From positions 1 through 34,564 of the IMG/VR virus record IMGVR_UViG_3300024520_000271: a stretch of 34,564 nucleotides of DNA, one strand, 5' to 3'. Below the pieces are notes generated by a model that made no database searches, had not been told where the DNA came from, and saw only the letters and a list, made by a program, of their open reading frames with translations. The position numbers were made by a program, and so were the translations under genes. The DNA is from a virus. This document shows, piece after piece, positions 3,302 to 34,564 of this stretch (its first letter is position 1; the number at the start of each line of letters is the position of its first letter).

Positions 3302-3378
3302 TATTTGATATAAATTATATACACTGTTTAAATATGTTATCATATTGGAAGCAAGTGGATGAAAATAAGAGAGAATGA
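3103..3378 (+). CDS. Tail chaperone C-terminal part in -1 frame
   Basis: In the -1 frame, 91 codons from 3103 to a TGA at 3376-3378 encode a soluble, acidic protein: it begins FEWRQNIFTTYQGVFGN, continues with EDWSDEEREINEAIKKE and ends with VDRLAQNDITKHEIIFD and LSYWKQVDENK. The pattern W-V-x-M-V-D-R-L-A-x-x-D-I-T-K is typical of chaperone C-termini. The TGA overlaps the next ATG as ATGA (3375-3378), exactly as other genes here are coupled, which is strong evidence that this frame and not the zero frame is the authentic end of the gene. It has no start codon of its own at a sensible place, so it must be reached by frameshifting. Confidence 0.7.
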   Translation, partial: FEWRQNIFTTYQGVFGNTENEQDREDWSDEEREINEAIKKESVGSGFKWVAMVDRLAQNDITKHEIIFDINYIHCLNMLSYWKQVDENKRE

Positions 3379-6067: not shown

Positions 6068-7509
6068 TGAGTACAACGATAAGATTAGAGCCTCAAGAAT
6101 TTCAAAGTGCTTACAATGAAATTATAACGGTATTAGATAGCAGCCAAAAGAGTAGACCAAAATTTCAACATATAGTTAAAATTTATATTGATGGGGTTTA
6201 TTCTAGTAAATTAAAAGTAACACCAAACCCTGCAGGATTGGGAGTAGTTAATTTATCAAAGCATATTGAAAGCTATGTTAGTGGTGATTTAGATTTAACA
6301 GATACCAATATATTTAAACAGATACCTAATAGTTTTGTTAAATATCATATTGAATTAGAAGAAGAGTATTTACACAATCCTAACTTTTTATCGGTATCAG
6401 ATAACGGTGGTTTTGTTCAATACAATTTTACAACCGACCATGAATTTAGTTTAGGGGATTTTATTACAGTTAATGCTTCAGTTCCTGAAGGTAGTTATAT
6501 TGGTGAGCAAGAAATCACAAACGTAGTTAGTACAACTGCAGTAGTTACTACTACAGCTTTTACAGCAACTTCTGTAGGTAATGCAGAATTGACAAGCGGA
6601 GCTACTACAATCTTTACAGATGCTGCAGTATTTTCTGCAGATAAATTCGCTTTAAATAACGTAGTGGATTGGGTAGATGTCCCTAGCTTTGATCCCACTA
6701 CATACTTAGTAGATTCAGCATCCCCTTCTGATTTCCTAACAAACTTAGACACAACTCAGACAGTATTATTAGATGATAGGATTAACTTTAATTTCTACAA
6801 TAAAACCTCAAATGAAGCTGAGTATTTAGAGGTTATATCAACTTTAGGAACTATAAGAATTCCTAACAATTTTACAACTACAAGTGATGCTAATAAATTC
6901 ATTTCGGTCGGCGTTGCACCTGCTGATATATTAAATCATACAGGATCAACCGTAACAGTTGTTAGTGGTATAGCTGCAATGATAGATGATACCATAGAGT
7001 CTTATACAGTGCAGTTGATAGATTCAGCTTTTAACCCATCAACCGAATTATTTACATTTAAAGTAAAATCAGAATGTAGTCCATATACTAACTATAAATT
7101 AATATACCTTAACAAAAGCGGTTCTTTTTCTGGTTTTAATTTTGAATTAGGAAGCAATAAAAAAGTAAAAGTAAACAAAAAGAACTACAATAAAAATTAC
7201 GGCTCTGCTGCAGTTAATGGTGAAACAGTAACTTATGGATGGAACTCTTACGAGCGTGGAGCTTCTACTTATGCTACAGATGTAACTGATACTTATAGTG
7301 TTACAAGTGATTACATTACAGAATTAGAAGGTGAAAAGATAGCCGATTTAATACAAAGCCCCGAAGTATATCACTTAGATTCAAGTGATGTATTGAGAGC
7401 TGTAAATATTAACACAAATTCTGTTAAAATTAAGACAAGATTAATAGATCATTTAGTGAATTACTCAATAGATTTTACTTACGCAACAAAAAACACAACT
7501 CAAAGATGA
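6067..7509 (+). CDS. Tail structural protein
   Basis: A 480-aa protein, MSTTIRLEPQEFQSAYNEI at the start, followed by a jelly-roll-like segment with PNPAGLGVVNLSKHIESYVS (about residues 59-78). This beginning recurs in uncharacterised tail or baseplate proteins of Bacteroidota phages. The middle (residues 150-320) is rich in Thr, Val and Ser and beta-strand prone; the C-terminus includes GWNSYERGASTYATD. No enzymatic motif is seen. It sits between gp10-like protein and the giant tail protein and is coupled to both by overlaps, so a distal tail or baseplate role is inferred. Confidence 0.65.
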   Translation: MSTTIRLEPQEFQSAYNEIITVLDSSQKSRPKFQHIVKIYIDGVYSSKLKVTPNPAGLGVVNLSKHIESYVSGDLDLTDTNIFKQIPNSFVKYHIELEEEYLHNPNFLSVSDNGGFVQYNFTTDHEFSLGDFITVNASVPEGSYIGEQEITNVVSTTAVVTTTAFTATSVGNAELTSGATTIFTDAAVFSADKFALNNVVDWVDVPSFDPTTYLVDSASPSDFLTNLDTTQTVLLDDRINFNFYNKTSNEAEYLEVISTLGTIRIPNNFTTTSDANKFISVGVAPADILNHTGSTVTVVSGIAAMIDDTIESYTVQLIDSAFNPSTELFTFKVKSECSPYTNYKLIYLNKSGSFSGFNFELGSNKKVKVNKKNYNKNYGSAAVNGETVTYGWNSYERGASTYATDVTDTYSVTSDYITELEGEKIADLIQSPEVYHLDSSDVLRAVNINTNSVKIKTRLIDHLVNYSIDFTYATKNTTQR

Positions 7510-10500
7510 ATGATATAAAGATATTACTAGCTGATAGTGAAATAGATATTAAAGGCACATTCGGTTTTGGTATAAATTACACAGTTTCTGATGTAAAAGA
7601 CCCTTCAAAACGTAATGCTCCCTATTCAAAAACTGTTACTTTACTGGGAACTAAGAATAACAACAGAATAATGGGGGGGCTTTGGGACGTGAATGCTGAT
7701 TTCACATTTTTTAACCCTAATTTTAAAACAGAATGCAGCATAATTGTTAATAGTTCTACAGTTATTGAGGGGTTTTTAAGATTAAAAAACATTAAAATAG
7801 TAAATACTAACTTTGAAGAGGGGGATGCTATTGAGTATGAGTGTGTTATAACTAGTAAATCAGTAGATTTTTATGGTAAGATTCAGGATAAATTATTAAC
7901 TGAGTTAGATTTCTCATATTACAACCATGATTACACAAAAGCAAACATAGTTTCTTCATGGAGTAATGATAGTAGGGGAGCTTATGTTTATCCTTTAATG
8001 TGGAACGGTAAAGAAGTTGGTGAGGGAAGCGAATATTATAAAACTGATTCTTTTAAACCTGCTATATTTGAGAAAGCTTATCTTGTTAGAATGGCTAAAG
8101 ATGCAGGTTACTCTTTAACGGGTTCTTTAATGGATGAAACCACTACAGAAGGTTTAGCTTTTTCTAAAGCAATTATACCTTTTAACGGCGAACTTCCCGA
8201 AATAACAGAAGCAGAAGTGTTAAGGAGAAAATTTAAAGCAAGTAGTGGGAGTAGTTTGTCTTTAGCTTCAGGCTCAATAACGTCTTCTTTTTGGACTGGT
8301 GTAAATTCAGGTATTGTAAATGTTACAAATGCAACTAACGATTCTACTGCAGGGAACTTTGATAACGGGGGAAACTATGATGCAACATTGAATAAATGGA
8401 CTGTAGATGCAGATGGCGTATATGGTATTCATGCTACATTAGATTTTATATCTACTTTTTCAACTGGAGGTACTGTCTACATGAGTGGATATAGAGAAGA
8501 TTGGTGGGGTAATACAGTTCAAGATACACCCGCAGGAACTACCATTAGATTTTCTGCTCAAGTATATATTGATGGGGCTGCTTACGGTAATCACTACTCT
8601 TCTAATTATGTTCAGATGCCCACAACGTTAACTACTTCAGACGTTCAAAATAGGCAGTTAGTAATATCTTTACCGACTGTTCATTTACAAGCTACTCAGG
8701 AAGTTACCATAGTTGTATCAGTAGGTGGGGTTAACTTCGTAGCCGCAAACGGTAGAAGTTTAAATTATACAACAGATGGAACTATTAATGGCACAGTTAA
8801 TACAGTAAGCTACACAATGGAATTGGATAGTACTGTTATACATAACGAAGTTAGAAGCTCTGCTTTAACAGATGGAGACGATATAATACTTTCTGAGTTC
8901 ATACCAAAGAATATAAAACAAAGCGATATACTAACAGATATTATAAAAAGATACAATGCCTATATAACTTTAGACCCTGATAAAAGTAACACTTTAGTCA
9001 TAGAGCCTAGAGATACTTTTTATGCTAGAGGAGATACTTTAGATTGGACTAATAAAAAAGATCATTCTAAACCTGATAAGATTAAATTATTATCGGAACT
9101 GCAAAACAAAAAAATTAAGTTTTCATATACTCCTGATGAAAAAGATTACAATGAAAATTATACTAAGGCTTTAAGCGGTGATATTTATGGAGAGCATGAA
9201 ATAGAATTTGTAAATGAATTTGTTAAAGGTGAAAAAATGATTCAAACACCTTTTAGCCCAACGCCTTTAATTTATAATCAAAAAGACCCTTTAAGAAGAT
9301 GTGCCATTATTCCATCTATAAAAACTTCAGCTCCTGAGACTAATCCAAGAATTTTGCATTATGGAGGTTTAAAAAGTACTTTAAACGGACAGCCGTTTTG
9401 GATAGAGTCAACAGATGGAGCAGGAACTACTTCAAATGTGGCTTATTATAGTTACCCGTATGCAGGTCATTATGATGACCCGATAAACCCTACAATGGAT
9501 ATTCATTTCGGTACAGTTCCTTTTGAATATTATTCTGCTAAAGCTACTACAACATCTTCAACTCAGTATAATAATTATTGGAAAAATTATATAGAACAAA
9601 TTGCAGAAGGGAAGCAAGTGGATATGTATTTCTTTTTAAATGAAGTAGATATTAATTATATCAAAGATAATTTAAACGCTAAGATATTTGTAAAAGATGC
9701 ATATTATTATATTAATAAAATAGTTGATTACAACCCTATTGTTAAGGGTGTAACTAAAGTAGAATTATTAAAAATAAAAGATGGTAATACTTTTGTGGAT
9801 AATATAGAGATTATAGATGGCGATACATATAATCCAAATGAAGGAACTGATGTAACAGCAGGAAGTGGTAACGGGAATACTTCAGGCTCTACTGGAGTTA
9901 CAATTAATGGAGAAGATAATAGAGTAGGTACAGCATCATATAATGTTACAATTAATGGTAATGATAACTTTGTAGGAGATGATTCGCCAAACGCAATTAT
10001 AACAGGAGATAACAACGTAATTGATTCAGCTGTAGAAAATGGTTTTGTAATCGGAGCAAGTAACAGAACGGTATCACAATCTAATACTGGTTACATTGGC
10101 GAACAATTTTATAGAGATGGAAAGCCAGCTACAGTTGTAGAAGATTACGAATTAGCAGACGTAATAACTTTAAGAGATGCAGGGACTTTAGAAGTTGGAG
10201 TTTCTTATAATTGTATTGATTTAGGATTACAATTTAAAGCAGAAGCAGTAGATGTTTTAAATTTTAATAGCACTCGTATTCTAGAAGTACCAAAAGCTTC
10301 TTTATATTCTAGCCTTGAAATATGGATTCCTAATAAGGATTATTCTGTAGATGATTTAGTTATATGGGGTGGGGTTGTTTGGAGGTGTACTGCAATAAGC
10401 GGAGGGTACAGCCCTATAGATGATTATACACTGAACAGCTCATATTATGAAGTAAATAGATCAGCAGGGAATTATGAAACCTTAAAGGTAGATGTATTAT

Positions 10501-10922
10501 ATAGTGAAGCAGATTCTCAAATAGTAACCACAAGAGATTCAAGAGGTAATGTAGTAAATACTATGGATGAAGATTTACACGTTTTATCTGATTGGAATGA
10601 TTCAAGAATATCTAATAATATTTTCGAAGGGTTTATTAATAATGATGTAACAGATTTATCTAATAATATTTGTAAAATAATTAAGAACAATAGAAATTTT
10701 GGAAGCATTACAGGTAACAGGAACAATGGAGATATAATGGAAAACACCTCTCAAACTGCTACCACTTTTTCAATTACTGACAATGTTAATAACGGTAGTA
10801 TAGATTTTAATCATTCTACAGCTAACATTACAATTAATAATAATGTTAACAATGGTTATATAGGTAATGCTACAACAACTAATAGAGCTGCAAGTATATC
10901 AGATACAACTGTGAATAAATAA
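7506..10922 (+). CDS. Large tail protein with Asn-rich solenoid C-terminus
   Basis: At 1138 aa this is the largest protein in the window. The N-terminus (MNDIKILLADSEIDI, then DPSKRNAPYSKTVTL) is typical of tail/baseplate hub proteins of Bacteroidota siphophages. Residues about 240-440 form Thr/Ser-rich beta domains. Residues about 790-850 show repeated GxxNxxxG motifs (VTINGEDN, VTINGNDN, IITGDNN) that look like turns of a left-handed beta-solenoid of the trimeric adhesin head type. The last 120 residues carry another Asn-rich series (NNIFEGFINN, NNGSI, NNVNNGYI). The gene probably encodes a baseplate hub extended into a host-contacting fibre. It ends 62 bases before the converging minus-strand cluster. 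Confidence 0.7.
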   Translation: MNDIKILLADSEIDIKGTFGFGINYTVSDVKDPSKRNAPYSKTVTLLGTKNNNRIMGGLWDVNADFTFFNPNFKTECSIIVNSSTVIEGFLRLKNIKIVNTNFEEGDAIEYECVITSKSVDFYGKIQDKLLTELDFSYYNHDYTKANIVSSWSNDSRGAYVYPLMWNGKEVGEGSEYYKTDSFKPAIFEKAYLVRMAKDAGYSLTGSLMDETTTEGLAFSKAIIPFNGELPEITEAEVLRRKFKASSGSSLSLASGSITSSFWTGVNSGIVNVTNATNDSTAGNFDNGGNYDATLNKWTVDADGVYGIHATLDFISTFSTGGTVYMSGYREDWWGNTVQDTPAGTTIRFSAQVYIDGAAYGNHYSSNYVQMPTTLTTSDVQNRQLVISLPTVHLQATQEVTIVVSVGGVNFVAANGRSLNYTTDGTINGTVNTVSYTMELDSTVIHNEVRSSALTDGDDIILSEFIPKNIKQSDILTDIIKRYNAYITLDPDKSNTLVIEPRDTFYARGDTLDWTNKKDHSKPDKIKLLSELQNKKIKFSYTPDEKDYNENYTKALSGDIYGEHEIEFVNEFVKGEKMIQTPFSPTPLIYNQKDPLRRCAIIPSIKTSAPETNPRILHYGGLKSTLNGQPFWIESTDGAGTTSNVAYYSYPYAGHYDDPINPTMDIHFGTVPFEYYSAKATTTSSTQYNNYWKNYIEQIAEGKQVDMYFFLNEVDINYIKDNLNAKIFVKDAYYYINKIVDYNPIVKGVTKVELLKIKDGNTFVDNIEIIDGDTYNPNEGTDVTAGSGNGNTSGSTGVTINGEDNRVGTASYNVTINGNDNFVGDDSPNAIITGDNNVIDSAVENGFVIGASNRTVSQSNTGYIGEQFYRDGKPATVVEDYELADVITLRDAGTLEVGVSYNCIDLGLQFKAEAVDVLNFNSTRILEVPKASLYSSLEIWIPNKDYSVDDLVIWGGVVWRCTAISGGYSPIDDYTLNSSYYEVNRSAGNYETLKVDVLYSEADSQIVTTRDSRGNVVNTMDEDLHVLSDWNDSRISNNIFEGFINNDVTDLSNNICKIIKNNRNFGSITGNRNNGDIMENTSQTATTFSITDNVNNGSIDFNHSTANITINNNVNNGYIGNATTTNRAASISDTTVNK

Positions 10923-10984
10923 TTCCTAACATTCGCTAAGTGGCATTTAAACGCCACCAAGCTCGGTGTTGTAATCAATTATGC
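10923..10984. repeat. Inter-gene element E5 between converging genes
   Basis: These 62 bases separate the stop of the large tail gene from the stop of the last minus-strand gene. GTGGC (10940-10944) pairs with GCCAC (10953-10957), so it may terminate in both directions. Read on the minus strand it shares ACAACACCGAGCT and TTAGCGAATGTTAGGAA with the spacer at 25025-25139, so it belongs to the same element family. Confidence 0.7.
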
Positions 10985-11224
10985 TTAAATCATAAATACA
11001 TCATTGCATTCCTTACATCTAACCCATCCTGCTATTTCGGGTTCAGTGTTTTTACAGTCGCATAACTGTTCGCTTTGCCTTACAACATTATGTATAACAA
11101 ATAATTTTACTAAACTTTTTGCTAAATTGTTAAATTCGCTTTCTGCAATACACCCTTCCAAGCTTTCTGTAACTGTATCTGAGTGTTCGTAGCTTTTTAT
11201 TATTTTCAATATTTCCTTTTCCAT
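10985..11224 (-). CDS. 79-aa zinc-ribbon-like protein
   Basis: Last gene of the minus-strand cluster. It encodes a helical N-terminal part (EKEILKIIKSYEHSD) and a C-terminal CxC...CxxC arrangement (LCDCKNT ... VRCKECNDVF) suited to binding zinc. Overall design, size and position of the Cys pairs resemble the neighbour at 11588, suggesting paralogues or a common theme. No known function; short zinc-ribbon phage proteins are often nucleic-acid or host-protein binders, which is inference only. Confidence 0.65.
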   Translation of the reverse strand: MEKEILKIIKSYEHSDTVTESLEGCIAESEFNNLAKSLVKLFVIHNVVRQSEQLCDCKNTEPEIAGWVRCKECNDVFMI

Positions 11225-11284
11225 AATTATTGTAGTTTTAAATCCGTAAAATTAAATGCCATACATTAGCCGTTAGTAGCAATA
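11225..11284 (-). repeat. Inter-gene element E4
   Basis: Spacer of 60 bases between minus-strand genes. On the minus strand it opens with GCTACTAACGGCTAATGTATGG shortly after the stop codon; CTAACG close behind a stop also occurs in the spacers at 11504-11587, 12113-12395 and 24568-24614. Confidence 0.5.
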
Positions 11285-11503
11285 TTAATGGTTTTCACAG
11301 TTTCCTTTATGAGCCAATGACATTGCATCACTCCAAGGTCTACAGCTAATGTAAATATATTCACAACCATCTACCTCTATTACCTTGTATGTTTTTTCAG
11401 GGTTTACATCATTATCACTTCCTTCTAGGGTACAACCAACCATTAAAAAAGCAACTAACAATGTGTAAAATGCATAGCTTAATTTTGTTATTAAATTTTT
11501 CAT
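11285..11503 (-). CDS. Small lipoprotein
   Basis: The 72-aa product has a classical lipoprotein signal: a basic N-terminus (MKNLITK), a hydrophobic stretch (residues 9-23) and a cysteine in LMVGC (residue 24), followed by an acidic TLEGSDND, which favours surface export in Bacteroidota. The mature part is about 49 aa with three further Cys. A phage lipoprotein in an accessory cluster could act in superinfection exclusion or host-envelope modification, as some known phage lipoproteins do; nothing here proves that. Confidence 0.7.
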   Translation of the reverse strand: MKNLITKLSYAFYTLLVAFLMVGCTLEGSDNDVNPEKTYKVIEVDGCEYIYISCRPWSDAMSLAHKGNCENH

Positions 11504-11587
11504 CTGTTTTTATTTTTAAAGTTTATTAATTATTCAAAGTTCTGTGCTGTTTAGGTCGCCACGCATCTTATACAAATACGTTAGCAA
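11504..11587 (-). repeat. Inter-gene element E3
   Basis: Spacer of 84 bases. On the minus strand it begins GCTAACGTATTTG and contains CCTAAACAGCACAG (plus-strand positions 11542-11555), which is identical to 24289-24302 ahead of the second small-gene array. Confidence 0.6.
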
Positions 11588-11821
11588 TCATTCAACGGCT
11601 ATATTTCCGCAGTCTAAACATTTTAATGCTGTCGAGCTAATTTGTTCGTGTTCAGTTTCTTTATCACACATCCCACAAAGTAACAGATTGCTAACATTCT
11701 GTATATTTAATGCTTGCTTTAGTGCTATTAATTCATCTTCGCAATAAACAGTATTGTCAATATTTTTTAACTCTGTATTAACCATATTGGTTATCATCAA
11801 TCTTTGTACTTCTGTTATCAT
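11588..11821 (-). CDS. 77-aa zinc-ribbon-like protein
   Basis: The protein has an N-terminal helical half (MITEVQRLMITNMVNTEL) and a C-terminal CxxC (LLCGMCDKE) plus CxxC (KCLDCGN), a zinc-ribbon layout. It resembles the product at 10985-11224 in length and design. It is the third gene of the minus-strand cluster. No family assignment is possible by reading; a DNA- or protein-binding accessory role is a guess. Confidence 0.65.
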   Translation of the reverse strand: MITEVQRLMITNMVNTELKNIDNTVYCEDELIALKQALNIQNVSNLLLCGMCDKETEHEQISSTALKCLDCGNIAVE

Positions 11822-11878
11822 CTTTATCTATTTAATTTTTTCGTTAATAATTCGCACTAAACATACAGTAGTAATTAA
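11822..11878 (-). repeat. Inter-gene element E2
   Basis: A 57-base spacer. On the minus strand it reads TTAATTACTACTGTATG, similar to the TTAATTACTGCTAACG that starts the spacer at 24566 in the second array. Confidence 0.4.
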
Positions 11879-12112
11879 CTACAATAAGCTAAGTTCGTGC
11901 TTTACTTTTAGAAAATATTGATAAGCATTTACATAACCTTCATATTCTGTTGGTATCATTTGTGCGTGCTTAATTGCTTCGTTTACACATATTTCAGCGT
12001 GCTTAATTGCTATCATAGTGCATAGTATTTCATATCCGCAATCAGTATCTTCATTCATCAATATTATTCTAAAAGTATCCACTAAGTCGTTTGCTTTTTC
12101 TTTTGGTGTCAT
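11879..12112 (-). CDS. 77-aa helical protein
   Basis: Starts MTPKEKANDLVDTFR and is all-helical, with several Cys and His (CGYEILCTMIAIKHAEICVNE). Proteins beginning MTPKEKA..LV are common, uncharacterised small proteins in Bacteroidota phages and prophages, so this is very likely a true gene. Second gene of the minus-strand cluster, preceded by a 283-base spacer. Confidence 0.7.
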   Translation of the reverse strand: MTPKEKANDLVDTFRIILMNEDTDCGYEILCTMIAIKHAEICVNEAIKHAQMIPTEYEGYVNAYQYFLKVKHELSLL

Positions 12113-12395
12113 AATCTAAGTTTTGTGCTTATAAACCGCTTACAGTAGTTAACACTGTATATAGTTTATAAGCCTAATTAATATTCGTTTTTAATTGTAA
12201 ATTTCTGCTATGGCTTACAAAACCATATACTAAACGTTATGATGCAATTAAAAAAGACATACAACAATAAATATAAGTAATGTGGAGTATAGTCTTTCTT
12301 TATTCCAATGCTTACTTCGTCAAGATGGGTGGTTCACTATACACATCATACCAACAAGTTACCGCACTACTCATATTCTTTGCCGTTAGTAATCA
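12113..12395 (-). repeat. 283-base non-coding spacer E1 with nested inverted repeats
   Basis: No convincing gene lies here. The plus strand holds an inverted repeat GCTTATAAAC (12127-12136) / GTTTATAAGC (12164-12173) with a second pair nested inside, TACAGT (12141-12146) / ACTGTA (12154-12159). Bases 12242-12267, read on the minus strand, match 25038-25063 at 25 of 26 positions. On the minus strand the spacer starts ACTAACGGC right after the stop of the preceding gene. The element is long for a phage and looks imported. Confidence 0.6.
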
Positions 12396-12551
12396 TTATT
12401 TTAACACCTCATTAATTGAAGCTCTTAATATATCAAATCCGCCTCTATCATCTAATTGAGATTCTATTTCCTTTAACATATTCTTATAACTATCTATTAA
12501 CTTCCATTGTGCCTCAATAATCTTTAACTGTTTTTCTACTACTTCATCCAT
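12396..12551 (-). CDS. 51-aa coiled-coil protein
   Basis: First gene of the minus-strand cluster. The 51-residue product (MDEVVEKQLKIIEAQWKLID start, ending RASINEVLK) is almost entirely helical with heptad spacing. A good Bacteroidota-type promoter stands just upstream on the same strand (12573-12604), which supports expression. No known family. Confidence 0.65.
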   Translation of the reverse strand: MDEVVEKQLKIIEAQWKLIDSYKNMLKEIESQLDDRGGFDILRASINEVLK

Positions 12552-12572
12552 ATTATTCCGTTTAGTGAATGA

Positions 12573-12604
12573 CAAATATAATAAACTTTTTTAATATAAA
12601 CAAA
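12573..12604 (-). promoter_or_regulatory. Minus-strand promoter of the accessory cluster
   Basis: On the minus strand TATATTTG (plus 12573-12580) lies 20 bases downstream of TTTG (plus 12601-12604), matching the TTG-N19/20-TAnnTTTG Bacteroidota promoter. It directs transcription leftwards into the five small genes 12551 to 10985. Confidence 0.75.
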
Positions 12605-12617
12605 GTAAAAAAAAAAA

Positions 12618-12632
12618 ACTTTTAAATATATG
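12618..12632 (+). promoter_or_regulatory. ACTTTTAAATATATG motif, copy 2
   Basis: Identical to 2624-2638; ends in the ATG of the 55-aa gene at 12630. It lies just beyond the divergent minus-strand promoter and marks the resumption of rightward structural genes. Confidence 0.55.
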
Positions 12633-12797
12633 AGCGAAAAAGAATTCTATAATAAAATTAGATTAGATGAAAATGGAAAACTAATAACTGTAGTAAATAC
12701 AAAAACAAACATAGATACTAAGGTAGGGAATAGGTATAGCTTCTTTAAAAAAATCAAGTTGGATGATACCAATAGAATTAAAATAGTTTTTGAATAA
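12630..12797 (+). CDS. 55-aa protein with duplicated RLDENG-like motif
   Basis: A 55-residue protein with two similar blocks: FYNKIRLDENGKLITVV (residues 6-22) and FFKKIKLDDTNRIKIVF (about 38-54). The following gene begins with a third version, FFKEVRLDENGALVVSL. The stop TAA is directly followed by that gene's ATG, so the two are translationally coupled. The block looks like a short beta-hairpin used as an attachment or oligomerisation module on tail proteins; I recognise no named family. Confidence 0.65.
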   Translation: MSEKEFYNKIRLDENGKLITVVNTKTNIDTKVGNRYSFFKKIKLDDTNRIKIVFE

Positions 12798-16272: not shown

Positions 16273-16382
16273 TTGTTTGAAAACGGGAAAAAATGAAAAA
16301 TTTCCCACTTTGAAACAATCCTTTGCTATCTATACTTGAGCCATATCAAATGTACGCTAGTATATATATATATATAACAACA
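16273..16382 (+). repeat. Twin ~110-bp structured element, copy A
   Basis: This intergenic element matches 33939-34046. First half: arms GTTTGAAAACGGGAAA and TTTCCCACTTTGAAAC are identical in both copies and pair at 13 of 16 positions, while the loop between them differs. Second half: a conserved GCTATC, then a GCTAGTATATA run of (TA)8 here and (TA)7 in copy B, ending ACAACA. It lies just after the tape measure gene and 10 bases before the protease gene ATG. A regulatory RNA leader, promoter or replication/packaging site is possible. Confidence 0.75.
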
Positions 16383-16392
16383 AATAAAAATT

Positions 16393-17022
16393 ATGAAAGA
16401 ATTATTAGTTGAATTAACAGTTAACGAATTAGAAGAAACAGGCATAGATATTATATCTTTTGTAGAAGCTCCTGCTATAGAAACTAACTTCATGTATTTT
16501 AGTAAAAATAAGAAGCAAAACTTCTCTTCTATTGATGCTGAAAAACGAATAGTAGTAGGAGCAGCTATGTTAGCTAATGAAAAAATAGTTAGAGAAGATG
16601 CAGATGGTAATCCATATTTTGTGTATTTCTCAGAAGAAACAGTTAGAAAGTGCCAAGAATTATTTTTCAAAAAAGGTAATACCAAAGGAACTAATGTAGA
16701 TCATGAACAAACAAAAGTTAGTTCAGGAGTTACTGTGGTAGAATCATGGATAGTAGAAAACCCTGAAATGGATAAATCAAAGCATTTAGGCTATGATGAT
16801 ATACCAAAAGGTAGTTGGTTTGTTTCTTACAAAGTAGATGATGATGCATTATGGGAGAAAGTAAAATCAGGAGAGGTACAAGGGTTTAGTGTAGAGGGAG
16901 TATTTACGCAAACAGTTGTAGATGATAAAAACATAGAGCAGGAGATGCAATCTATTTTAAATGGTTGTGGTTCTCGTATTGATAAAATACTAGCATTAAA
17001 AGAAAAATTAAACATTTCATAA
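16393..17022 (+). CDS. XkdF-like prohead protease
   Basis: The 209-aa product matches the phage serine protease XkdF type: MKELLVELTVNELEETGIDI, ISFVEAPAIETNFMYFS, RIVVGAAMLANEKIVR (residues about 52-67), then NVDHEQTKVSSGVTVVESW (about 100-118), where His is the usual catalytic candidate, and VKSGEVQGFSVEGVF (about 157-171) with the catalytic Ser candidate in GFSVEG. The enzyme matures the prohead by cleaving the scaffold and capsid. It is followed directly by scaffold-like and capsid genes, as expected. Its ATG lies ten bases after the twin element copy A, which probably controls the head operon. Confidence 0.85.
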   Translation: MKELLVELTVNELEETGIDIISFVEAPAIETNFMYFSKNKKQNFSSIDAEKRIVVGAAMLANEKIVREDADGNPYFVYFSEETVRKCQELFFKKGNTKGTNVDHEQTKVSSGVTVVESWIVENPEMDKSKHLGYDDIPKGSWFVSYKVDDDALWEKVKSGEVQGFSVEGVFTQTVVDDKNIEQEMQSILNGCGSRIDKILALKEKLNIS

Positions 17023-17029
17023 TTAAATT

Positions 17030-17044
17030 ACTTTTAAATATATA
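17030..17044 (+). promoter_or_regulatory. ACTTTTAAATATAT motif, copy 3
   Basis: ACTTTTAAATATAT followed by ATAA instead of G. Unlike the other copies it is separated from the start codon (17065) by about 20 bases, which argues against a pure start-codon element. Confidence 0.5.
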
Positions 17045-19210: not shown

Positions 19211-19240
19211 AAGGGCTATCTTAACGGATAGCCTTTTTTT
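19211..19240 (+). terminator. Rho-independent terminator
   Basis: GGCTATC (19214-19220) pairs with GATAGCC (19227-19233) around TTAACG, followed by seven T (19234-19240). Flanking A and T extend the stem. It closes the capsid/tail-tube unit. Confidence 0.88.
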
Positions 19241-19262
19241 ATAAACATTGCATAAATAATTA

Positions 19263-19277
19263 ACTTTTAAATATATG
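19263..19277 (+). promoter_or_regulatory. ACTTTTAAATATATG motif, copy 4
   Basis: Identical to the copies at 2624 and 12618, ending in the ATG of the 54-aa gene at 19275, and again placed just after a terminator. Confidence 0.55.
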
Positions 19278-19439
19278 AGCAAATTAGTTTTAAAAAAAGA
19301 GTACGAAAATGTGACTCTATCAAACGGAAATTTAAAAGCATTTAACACAATAGATGTTACTGATTCAAACGTAGAATTCTATATTCAAAAAGGATTTAGA
19401 TTTATCTTTGAAGAGAAGAAGAAAAAGAAAAATGATTAA
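19275..19439 (+). CDS. 54-aa protein before the portal unit
   Basis: The ORF encodes a 54-residue protein (MSKLVLKKEYENVTLSNGN start, ending with FEEKKKKKND). The middle, LKAFNTIDVTDSNVEFYIQKG, reads like a short beta-fold; small proteins of this type with a poly-Lys end occur next to head-completion genes of Bacteroidota phages. The start coincides with the recurrent motif. The stop overlaps the next start (ATGATTAA). Confidence 0.7.
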   Translation: MSKLVLKKEYENVTLSNGNLKAFNTIDVTDSNVEFYIQKGFRFIFEEKKKKKND

Positions 19440-22077: not shown

Positions 22078-22598
22078 AACATGTACCAATTTACATAATA
22101 TTAGTACTATTGCTGCTTGTTGTTACGTGTAGTGATAATAAAACAAGCTGTATTGATAGAACTAAAGCAGTAGTTGAATACGATACTACTATAATTCATC
22201 ATACAATCAGAGACACTATAACATCATTTGATACTATTGTTAAAAATACAAGAGATACAATAGTTGATAGTGTTAAATATTCTTTGAATGAATATCACTA
22301 TAAAGTGAATGATTCATTAATAACAGGCGAAATAGTTGTAGAAGCACCGTTTAATCCCATTTTAAGATATGAATTAACGGCTAACTCATTTCATACAACC
22401 GAATACACCAAAGAAACTATAACTAACCTTAGAGGCTTCTTGTATGGAGGGCAAATAACTATAGATCCTTTATTAACTAATTTGCAGGGAACTTTAGCTT
22501 ATCAAAATAAGCGTGGTAGTATGTACAGTCTAGGTTTAGGCTTTGATTTCACAAATAAAAATAGGCTCATTTCTGTAGGCTATTTAAAAAAATTCTAA
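22074..22598 (+). CDS. Putative spanin-like lipoprotein
   Basis: The 174-aa ORF has no early ATG; a TTG at 22074 overlapping the previous TGA (TTGA) is the best start. A hydrophobic segment (residues 6-18, IYIILVLLLLVVT) ends in Cys19, lipobox-like. A DT-rich periplasmic stretch follows (YDTTIIHHTIRDTITSFDTI), as seen in Rz/spanin-like proteins of Bacteroidota phages. The last 60 residues alternate like outer-membrane strands (GGQITIDPLLTNLQGTLAY, SMYSLGLGFDFTNKNRL, ISVGYLKKF with terminal Phe). A lipoprotein anchor plus outer-membrane-like terminus would suit a single-protein spanin linking envelope layers, but this is inference. Confidence 0.6.
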   Translation: MKHVPIYIILVLLLLVVTCSDNKTSCIDRTKAVVEYDTTIIHHTIRDTITSFDTIVKNTRDTIVDSVKYSLNEYHYKVNDSLITGEIVVEAPFNPILRYELTANSFHTTEYTKETITNLRGFLYGGQITIDPLLTNLQGTLAYQNKRGSMYSLGLGFDFTNKNRLISVGYLKKF

Positions 22599-24246: not shown

Positions 24247-24348
24247 TACGCCAAAACTTGATTAAATTAATAGTTATGGCGAATTAAACCTAAACAGCAC
24301 AGTGTATGTTGCGTTGCGGAATTAACAATAAAATTAAATAGAAAAGAT
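24247..24348 (+). repeat. Inter-gene element E6
   Basis: This spacer of 102 bases opens with an inverted repeat CGCCAAAACT / AGTTATGGCG (one mismatch) right after the exonuclease stop, which may act as a terminator, and carries CCTAAACAGCACAG (24289-24302), identical to a spacer in the minus-strand cluster (11542-11555). Confidence 0.6.
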
Positions 24349-24567
24349 ATGAATTGGATTAAGAGATTATTTAGTAAAAAACCACTAAACAAGCAATGTG
24401 ATATACATTGTGTTAGCAGTAGTTTTAATTGCTTAGGCTGTAATAAAGTTGTAGATGGTGGCGACTACTTATATATAAAAGAATTTAGAGATGAATTTGC
24501 AAAAAACAGATGCAAAAAATGTGTAACAGAAATAGTTGAAAGCGGTAAATTAGTTGAGATACTTTAA
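24349..24567 (+). CDS. 72-aa Cys-rich small protein
   Basis: First gene of the second small-gene array. The N-terminus MNWIKRLFSKK is amphipathic and basic, and the body has CDIHC, NCLGCNKVV and RCKKCVTEI, a double CxxC zinc-binding arrangement. The look is bacterial more than phage-structural. It is preceded by an A-rich leader and flanked by elements of the shared spacer family. No known function. Confidence 0.6.
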   Translation: MNWIKRLFSKKPLNKQCDIHCVSSSFNCLGCNKVVDGGDYLYIKEFRDEFAKNRCKKCVTEIVESGKLVEIL

Positions 24568-24614
24568 TTACTGCTAACGAATGGTAATATGTTTTGAATT
24601 TAAAATTTTGAGTG
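24568..24614 (+). repeat. Inter-gene element E7
   Basis: The spacer begins TTACTGCTAACGAATGG directly after the stop codon, similar to spacers E2 and E3 of the minus-strand cluster read in their own direction. Confidence 0.4.
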
Positions 24615-24794
24615 ATGGAAAATAACAAAGAAATAGAAAACTACCCTGATGAGTTTTGGGATGATTACGAAGAAAATGACGAACCCGATTACTACTACTG
24701 TAATTGTTGCAATAGCACCCAAGCCGAATTAAGTTTTGGAAATAGCTGCAACACTTGCGGAATATTTGGAGTGATGGAAGGAGAAAATTTTTAA
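24615..24794 (+). CDS. 59-aa acidic zinc-ribbon protein
   Basis: A very acidic N-terminus (YPDEFWDDYEENDEPDYYY) leads into a CxxC...CxxC ribbon (CNCCNST, SCNTCGIFG). ATG at 24615 is taken over the GTG one codon earlier. The array partners on both sides and the spacer elements suggest it is a cassette-like accessory gene. Function unknown. Confidence 0.6.
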   Translation: MENNKEIENYPDEFWDDYEENDEPDYYYCNCCNSTQAELSFGNSCNTCGIFGVMEGENF

Positions 24795-24892
24795 TATAAA
24801 ATATATTACGTGTTAGGCTCATTTTTAATTGTTGCCTAAACGCATTGTGTATGGGTAGTTTTTGCCCGATTTAATAACTTAAAAATATAATT
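24795..24892 (+). repeat. Inter-gene element E8
   Basis: The spacer contains GTTAGGC and GCCTAAAC as inverted arms 15 bases apart, followed by GTATGGGTAG and TTTTTGCCCG. The arm sequences recall the outer cores of integron attC sites, but the canonical paired 7-base cores are not all present and no integrase is seen. Confidence 0.5.
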
Positions 24893-25024
24893 ATGAAGAA
24901 AGAACAATTTGAAATACTGATGTATGCGCTTTATGGAAACAACCAATTATTTATACCACAAGGGCAAACCATACAAGAATGGATAGATAATGCCTTTGAT
25001 AACGCAGAAAAGCAAGGGCAATAA
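24893..25024 (+). CDS. 43-aa protein
   Basis: The short ORF encodes MKKEQFEILMYALYGNNQLF and ends TIQEWIDNAFDNAEKQGQ, two helices around a Gly-Asn turn. It has an A-rich leader (TAAAAATATAATT) and a clean stop inside the array of small genes. Short size limits certainty. No family known. Confidence 0.5.
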   Translation: MKKEQFEILMYALYGNNQLFIPQGQTIQEWIDNAFDNAEKQGQ

Positions 25025-25139
25025 TTACCTATACACGTTGTTGTATGTCTTTTTTAATTACATACAACACCGAGCTATGTAACGCCTTTTCGGTGTTATA
25101 TTAGCGAATGTTAGGAATAGTAAAAACAAATAAAAAAAT
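25025..25139 (+). repeat. Inter-gene element E9
   Basis: This 115-base spacer is the most complete member. It contains TTGTTGTATGTC...AATTACAT (25038-25063; 25 of 26 shared with E1), ACAACACCGAGCT (25064-25076) and TTAGCGAATGTTAGGAA (25101-25117), both shared with E5, and an AACACCGA / TCGGTGTT inverted repeat. ACACCRARCTATGTAACG and CGGTGTTATAT are also found in E10 at 29275. Confidence 0.65.
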
Positions 25140-29126: not shown

Positions 29127-29276
29127 ATGGAAACAAGAGCGAAACAAACGGAACATTTTAAAGGGCTTATGTATGATTTAGAAGATAAAAATGATAGAAT
29201 AGCTTTGTTATGGAGCTTAGTAAATGCTAATAAAATAAATAGAAGGCAGTTTAAGGAATTAATTAATTGTTTATAA
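29127..29276 (+). CDS. 49-aa helical protein
   Basis: The ORF gives a 49-residue charged helical protein (METRAKQTEHFKGLMYDLED at the start, NRRQFKELINCL at the end). It has a promoter 60 bases upstream. Its stop codon TAA lies in the left arm of an inverted repeat (29275-29324), an arrangement seen at cassette-type boundaries in this genome. No family known. Confidence 0.55.
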   Translation: METRAKQTEHFKGLMYDLEDKNDRIALLWSLVNANKINRRQFKELINCL

Positions 29277-29324
29277 CACCAAACTATGTAACGTAAGCGA
29301 AGCGGTGTTATATAGTTTGGTGTT
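29275..29324 (+). repeat. Inter-gene inverted repeat E10
   Basis: AACACCAAACTATGTAAC (29275-29292) pairs with GTTATATAGTTTGGTGTT (29307-29324) at 17 of 18 positions. It shares ACACCRARCTATGTAACG and CGGTGTTATAT with E9 at 25064-25100. No T-run follows, so it is not a simple terminator. Confidence 0.7.
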
Positions 29325-29340
29325 AGCAAAAAAAATAAAT

Positions 29341-33938: not shown

Positions 33939-34046
33939 TTGTTTGAAAACGGGAAATTTTCTTTTTTTTCCCACTTTGAAACAAATTTGCCCTTGCTATC
34001 ATTGGCTCATATTAAATGTGCGCTAGTATATATATATATAACAACA
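33939..34046 (+). repeat. Twin ~110-bp structured element, copy B
   Basis: Same arms as copy A (GTTTGAAAACGGGAAA 33941-33956 and TTTCCCACTTTGAAAC), a different T-rich loop, then GCTATC, GCGCTAG and (TA)7 with ACAACA. It follows terS directly and precedes a promoter box and the next gene. Copy A and copy B are 17,666 bp apart on a 34,395-bp circle, nearly opposite each other. Confidence 0.75.
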
Positions 34047-34104: not shown

Positions 34105-34446
34105 ATGACAATAGATGAACAACAAGAAGACGAATATTTCAATAGAAAAATATATATAAATGGTAAATTTATGTTGGATGATAAATTTGATGTAGATGGA
34201 GGTATTAAAATTGACTTCGCTTTTTTTCATGGTACAATGTTTGAATTTGAAACTTTATTAATAAAACATAAAGACATTGTAGATAAATATAAATTAGAAT
34301 ACACGTTTTTAACTGCAGAAGAGATAAGACTATTAGAATTACCGACACCAAACTTTAAAAGTATCAATACTAATATAGCAGAAGAAAAAAGATATTTAAG
34401 AACTGGTTATAACACTATTACTTCAGGAACATTTAAACAATATTAA
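34105..34446 (+). CDS. Hypothetical 113-aa protein
   Basis: The product (MTIDEQQEDEYFNRKIYING) is an acidic alpha/beta protein with GGIKIDFAFFHGTMFEFETL and EYTFLTAEEIRLLELPTPNF. It follows element copy B and a promoter box and is followed one base later by the HTH-like gene repeated at both ends of the window, so it begins the packaging transcript that leads into the large terminase. No family recognised. Confidence 0.7.
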   Translation: MTIDEQQEDEYFNRKIYINGKFMLDDKFDVDGGIKIDFAFFHGTMFEFETLLIKHKDIVDKYKLEYTFLTAEEIRLLELPTPNFKSINTNIAEEKRYLRTGYNTITSGTFKQY

Positions 34447-34564
34447 CATGAGAATAGAAGAACAATTAATACAAAAGAAAACATTTAAACAAATTGCAAA
34501 TTTCTTAGGTATATCAGAAGGGGATGTATCAGAAAGTTTAAATAGAACAACACCACGCAAAATA
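34396..34564. repeat. Terminal direct repeat, right copy
   Basis: Repeats 1-169 with six substitutions; see the left copy. It contains the 3' end of the 113-aa gene and the first 117 bases of the HTH-like gene. Confidence 0.9.
34448..34564 (+). CDS. HTH-like gene, partial second copy
   Basis: This is the first 39 codons of the gene described at 53-307, cut by the window's end. Relative to that copy, codon 25 changes GGC to GGG, codon 34 GCT to ACA (Ala to Thr), codon 35 ACT to ACA and codon 37 AGA to CGC. It is the same locus on the circular genome, not a second gene. Confidence 0.85.
   Translation, partial: MRIEEQLIQKKTFKQIANFLGISEGDVSESLNRTTPRKI

Follow-up and report, generated by a model that had tools for sequence, protein, structure and literature searches.

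Two small-gene arrays of a tailed-phage genome as probable integron-type cassette clusters of a Flavobacteriaceae integron-like system

Sedentary chromosomal integrons of the Vibrio type are long polar arrays located beside a tyrosine recombinase. Their recombination sites are hairpins of ~125 nt, the ends of each cassette are complementary in a cassette-specific manner, and the gene starts just past the cut site. Clusters of cassette sites without an integrase (CALINs) have been reported from virulent phages, with methyltransferase cassettes among them; phage P12002L is reported to carry such a cluster, one attC of which was active with IntI1 (Qi et al. 2023, PMC9892861). The sections of that paper on which we draw tie the sites to IntI1 and note divergent attC directions, and they make no mention of a patchless host recombinase, of reversed gene orientation or of genes inside the hairpin loop. 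In the IntegronFinder 2.0 survey (PMC9024848), Bacteroidetes proper were represented only by In0 elements and one complete Salinibacter integron. Our search of open-access PMC found no published description of a Flavobacteriaceae integron-like system, and the one considered here, from marine members of the family, is apparently undescribed so far.

The stretch of DNA analysed here, which we call the window, is a viral record of 34,564 nt. It is a tailed-phage genome encoding a terminase, portal, tape measure, DnaQ-like exonuclease and helicase. A direct repeat of 169 bp at its ends (1-169 and 34396-34564, 96% identical) makes it likely that this genome is complete or circularly permuted. Five small minus-strand ORFs break the plus-strand structural genes, as an earlier note on this DNA had observed, and all five are present; further small genes form an array on the plus strand. 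Judging from sequence comparison, we consider it very probable that both arrays are CALIN-like clusters of integron-type cassettes belonging to an integron-like system of the host, which would be moved by the host recombinase or by recombination at the arms of the sites. Their features, together with an isolated third site, are as follows.

10922-12573, minus strand: whole minus-strand cassette array, flanked by the tail gene (7506-10922) and by the gene at 12630
12396-12551, minus strand: gene A, ORF of 51 aa
12265-12387, minus strand: attC-like site of host-standard length, loop without ORF (AAC 12387, GTT 12265; stem score 13.5)
12242-12267, minus strand: cassette body without a gene, the 26-bp block of the earlier note (25 of 26 bases shared with 25038-25063)
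12153-12238, minus strand: short attC-like site (right arm GTT 12153; left arm placed by eye)
11879-12112, minus strand: gene B, 77 aa (phrog_21441, E 1e-8; function not known for the family)
11588-11821, minus strand: gene C, 77 aa, possible zinc-ribbon protein (weak HypA match, E 8e-4)
11459-11582, minus strand: attC-like site; gene D starts in its loop (stem score 12.0)
11285-11503, minus strand: gene D, 72 aa, lipoprotein-like (phrog_19356, E 3e-10)
10985-11224, minus strand: gene E, ORF of 79 aa enclosing a right-arm core (GTTGTAA at 11086), possible zinc-ribbon protein
10922-10970, minus strand: terminal attC-like site of the minus array (right arm TTAGCGAATGTTAGGAAT; folds, z -2.1)
24289-25118, plus strand: whole plus-strand cassette array, following the DnaQ-like gene
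24293-24412, plus strand: attC-like site with the start of plus-gene 1 in its loop (stem score 12.5, core distance 119 nt)
24349-24567, plus strand: plus-gene 1, 72 aa, starting in the loop and extending through the right arm
24576-24812, plus strand: attC-like site whose loop encloses all of plus-gene 2 (24612-24794) (stem score 12.5, 236 nt)
24838-25040, plus strand: attC-like site whose loop encloses all of plus-gene 3 (24893-25024) (stem score 13.0, 202 nt)
25040-25068, plus strand: cassette body without a gene, GTTGTATGT-CTTTTTTAATT-ACATACAAC (9-bp end match; right-arm score 19.2)
25066-25118, plus strand: terminal attC-like site of the plus array (right arm in common with 10922-10939; folds, z -2.5)
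29258-29332, plus strand: third attC-like hairpin, isolated (19-bp stem, z -5.6; end match 29109/29277)

The blocks that the earlier note had described as shared between the arrays were all recovered. Positions 12242-12267 and 25038-25063 differ at one of 26 bases and belong to a 40-nt inverted pair (85%), CCTAAACAGCACAG occurs at 11542-11555 (minus strand) and 24289-24302 (plus strand), and 10922-10939 matches 25101-25118 at 18 of 18 positions; all three blocks keep the same sense relative to gene direction. This sharing lies above chance, as judged from the blastn E-values of the minus array against the window (6e-7 for 25024-25063, 9e-5 for 24303-24348) and from motif-matrix scores compared with Markov simulations. 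Most of the best window matches of the bacterial-repeat matrices fall within the two arrays and on the strand of the genes, and several have zero equivalents in 20 simulations, including the right arm at 12153 (score 11.0); right-arm-like exceptions outside the arrays are located at 3326 (plus) and 27891 (minus). Beyond what had been noticed before, the shared blocks are the two arms of a single hairpin site, with some arms inside ORFs, the 26-bp block is a geneless cassette body, and a third site is present at 29258-29332. That hairpin adjoins a 49-aa ORF (29127-29276) just ahead of the helicase gene. An Rfam scan returned no relevant match.

The same motifs recur in bacterial chromosomes. 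Among the matches listed in genome contigs, the left-arm pattern occurs only in Flavobacteriaceae and close relatives, and the host arrays, built of ~125-bp repeats, lie on the downstream side of a tyrosine recombinase gene. We examined the DNA around one such recombinase in 18 genomes: loci that have an array carry the motifs downstream of the recombinase, nearly all on the opposite strand and 0.5-2 kb apart, and the motif strand is fixed in most of the 18; a few loci have few or no nearby motifs or a recombinase of another subgroup. Two complete genomes carry motifs over 60-130 kb on a single strand. In a family sample, 18 of 149 genomes hold at least five motifs (the reversed pattern reaches at most two per strand), and the same geometry was counted by hand in 11 of the 12 contigs that, among the matches listed, have motif and recombinase within 80 kb of each other. 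It is this shared position that suggests the link between array and recombinase.

Left- and right-arm models were built from host sequence alone, and the cassette unit reads left arm (AACG..TGTATATG), loop, right arm (TATATACGGTGTT), barcode, body, barcode'. In a host cassette, the sequence following GTT at one end complements that preceding AAC at the other; this barcode matches at 5/5 positions in 321 of 375 host cassettes (86%, as against 2% when shuffled) and has a fixed mismatch at position 8. Stem-like covariation of the arms is seen across 424 host sites, the six strongest pairs lying on a single diagonal, with a 3-nt asymmetry between the arms. In five duplicated host cassette pairs the repeat on the left-arm side is conserved at 0.81-1.00, compared with 0.63-0.76 on the other side and 0.68 at random (two more distant pairs, with bodies 68-73% identical, were uninformative). 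Because duplicated cassettes keep the left-side repeat only, the repeat can be assigned to the following body, which places the cut at the left arm. Covarying arms, matching end barcodes and a left-side repeat that moves with its body together give the arrays the cassette logic of integrons. The structure-conserved paired arms and complementary cassette ends (R'' and R') of attC sites are thus both found, and a site that travels with its body and is cut at G^TT is seen in the duplicated host cassettes and at three of four breakpoints between sister phages.

In the window, five right arms pair with their expected left arms (24293/24412, 24576/24812, 24838/25040, 11582/11459 and 12387/12265) at scores of 12-13.5, the 99th percentile of the null being 10.3. 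Core distances in three of these sites are 119-123 nt, as is standard in the hosts; where the loops enclose plus-genes 3 and 2 they are 202 and 236 nt, respectively. The left arm of the 11459-11582 site scores 23.5 bits with the host-trained matrix, the best in the window. End barcodes are clear for gene C (10-bp match, 11695 with 11580), plus-gene 1 (matched ends GTTAGCAGTA/TACTGCTAAC) and the body at 25040. The ORF of gene C contains the right-arm core GTTAGCAATC, and the stem-pairing search placed no left arm belonging to genes C and E themselves. The window therefore carries at least five stem-supported sites and no recombinase match, where a CALIN is defined by at least two attC sites and no integrase.

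The blocks sit between genes and form hairpins, as would ordinary terminators or other palindromic repeats between genes, and the earlier note had named generic terminators as the finding that would overturn its proposal. We give this explanation almost no weight: the arms covary, each gene's end barcode finds its match at the far end of the gene rather than on the other side of the hairpin, and the repeat moves with one side only. Moreover, arms lie within coding sequences and whole genes within loops, the motif keeps its polarity relative to the recombinase gene over tens of kilobases, and its genome-contig matches, among those listed, come from Flavobacteriaceae and close relatives. The earlier proposal that both arrays drew on the same pool is instead supported, since hundreds of genes in the chromosomes of Flavobacteriaceae and in other phages are bordered by recombination sites of the family to which these arms belong. 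Its alternative, one element spreading within the genome, is not needed, because the two arrays have sites in common and no gene. Looking in host chromosomes for intact relatives, as the earlier note had suggested, recovered the sites; for the genes, gene C was the sole protein tried and matched 0 of 149 genomes.

Eight aligned host recombinases measure 365-404 aa and conserve the catalytic residues. The best family matches of one of them (L159) are XerA (NF040815, 209 bits) and IntI models, all below cut-off, and its best structure match is PDB 5hxy. XerA and XerC/D tyrosine recombinases are thus its best relatives by family and structure, from which it differs in falling below every family cut-off, in an N-terminal extension of ~90 residues and in its linkage to a cassette array. 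The extension, present in the recombinases of L159, L163, L167, L170 and L173, has no Pfam match, and the same proteins share a conserved C-terminal tail (ISGT/SRN/SRT-like). The L159 protein lacks the IntI4 segment, leaving a gap relative to PDB 2a3v between chain residues 198 and 248, and the IntI additional domain (around patch III) by which a complete integron is recognized is absent from the array-linked recombinase. With the Vibrio-type integrons the host system has in common the long polar array beside a tyrosine recombinase, the site length of ~125 nt, the cassette-specific complementarity of the ends and a gene that starts just past the cut. Unlike them, it combines a recombinase of this kind, pointing in the same direction as the array, with an end complementarity extended by the fixed mismatch and three further pairs; no conserved attI candidate was found downstream of the recombinase. 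Alternatively, these could be ordinary integron cassettes moved by canonical IntI from the surveyed hosts or from passing mobile integrons, given a cassette logic identical to that of integrons and the IntI1-active attC in the CALIN of P12002L in the reported data (PMC9892861). This is improbable, as none of 19 motif-bearing genomes encodes a protein over the IntI family cut-off (TIGR02249) and the array-linked recombinase is without the IntI-specific segment. If the arrays do belong to a host integron-like system, IntI-based searches miss a large set of such arrays, in a bacterial family dominant in the sea, and a candidate recombinase is at hand for phage CALINs already reported. The system is open to testing in culturable Polaribacter and Polaribacter phages.

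The published phage CALINs, that of P12002L included, are from the same phage lineage as the window and very probably share its site family; integrase-less site clusters in virulent phages and methyltransferase cassettes are further points in common. Polaribacter phage P12002S shares a 124-bp match of 87% with the plus array. Over most of the stretch compared, P12002L and P12002S show 99.5-100% identity; they are set apart by whole-gene indels, whose breakpoints fall in the left-arm motif AACG..TGTATATG found after each gene. Breakpoints were read from this pair, leaving out the Freya phage copies; three of four agree with a cut at AA^CG and one lies ~11 bp farther into the arm. Empty sites also occur: in five relatives (L180, L200, L204, L238 and L239) the tail gene is followed directly by the orthologue of the gene at 12630 or 12798, the plus array is missing from ~50 relatives with sequence beyond the DnaQ-like gene, and in L260 dnaQ is followed directly by the 25559 orthologue. 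The modular exchange put forward in the earlier note is supported, as whole units are gained and lost at the left arm in sister phages and relatives lack either array. A domain swap with a cut at the right arm inside genes was rejected as the main route, the moving boundary in sister phages and duplicated host cassettes being the left arm.

The sites might be inherited cassette remnants, with all movement in phages due to phage or host homologous or annealing recombination at the arms and with no site-specific recombinase acting on phage DNA; breakpoint 1 of the P12002L/P12002S pair falls in a shared TGTAT inside the arm, away from AA^CG, no recombinase of the host-array family is encoded in the phage loci examined, including the window, and distant phages show exchange at right arms. 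We find this unlikely, though deserving of attention, because the other three breakpoints fit AA^CG and some phage cassettes retain intact 10-bp end barcodes and host-standard spacing, which drift without use would erode. Most likely, to go by these sequence comparisons, the phage arrays rely on the recombinase of the host, and homologous exchange at the arms offers them a second route. In such a scheme, single strands of the sites would fold into hairpins, the host recombinase would cut the left arm at AA^CG (G^TT on the complementary strand), and cassettes would be excised as circles, matched barcodes rebuilding the site, and inserted elsewhere. Phages could then gain or lose cassettes by this route or by short-homology recombination at the arms.

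Among ~50,000 phages the minus array has one strong match, Maribacter phage Panino (109 bp, 96%), spanning the spacer through the start of gene D. Panino CDS0056 (L004, PP540027.1 about 22174-22282) and gene D (window 11285-11560) have the spacer, the signal peptide and a 16-nt cassette end in common, and their mature proteins are unrelated; the middle has been replaced and both cassette ends retained. Simple cassette exchange leaves this pattern unexplained.

Phage cassettes differ from those of the hosts in the placement of their genes. When both groups were run through one pipeline, host cassettes with an ORF had it in one orientation in 362 of 379 cases, and phage cassettes with an ORF had it in the opposite one in all 37 (these come from other phages and viral contigs and include a few near-duplicates; the window adds one more). 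The ORF starts inside the loop at 16 of 31 phage sites, compared with 10 of 149 host sites. In the window, gene D and plus-gene 1 start in loops and plus-genes 2 and 3 lie wholly inside them; gene D has its ribosome site, start codon and signal peptide in the loop of the 11459-11582 site and then continues through the right arm. Since the start codon or the whole gene is often inside the loop, the recombination site is at once the gene's 5' part. We found no report of reversed orientation or loop starts in phage cassettes in open-access PMC. These observations suggest that marine phages maintain a pool of exchangeable genes of their own and, if correct, describe a phage-specific cassette architecture in which genes are reversed and started inside the recombination hairpin. 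A broader reading, which we offer tentatively and as somewhat short of probable, is that marine Flavobacteriaceae harbor a second integron lineage without the IntI domain, that phages keep a separate, inverted pool, and that the hairpin doubles as a start module (ribosome site, start codon, sometimes signal peptide), letting arm exchange fuse ready-made leaders to new protein bodies.

Regarding the cargo, family searches gave gene A no match better than E 0.09, and neither gene C nor gene E had a tblastn match in phages. Of the eight small proteins, four (C, E, plus-gene 1 and plus-gene 2) contain CxxC-type, zinc-ribbon-like cysteine pairs, and their family matches are weak; zinc-ribbon-like proteins are a possible common cargo type of the cassettes. 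Two further repeats were seen in the window. A 74-bp repeat, 80% identical and ending in a TATATATA run, occurs at 16301-16374 and 33967-34040, 17.7 kb apart. An AT-rich leader (TAAACA...ACTTTTAAATATATG), possibly a phage promoter or ribosome-site motif, is repeated just ahead of phage genes at 2595-2649, 12589-12643, 17009-17043 and 19234-19288, and the minus array ends directly beside one of these copies.
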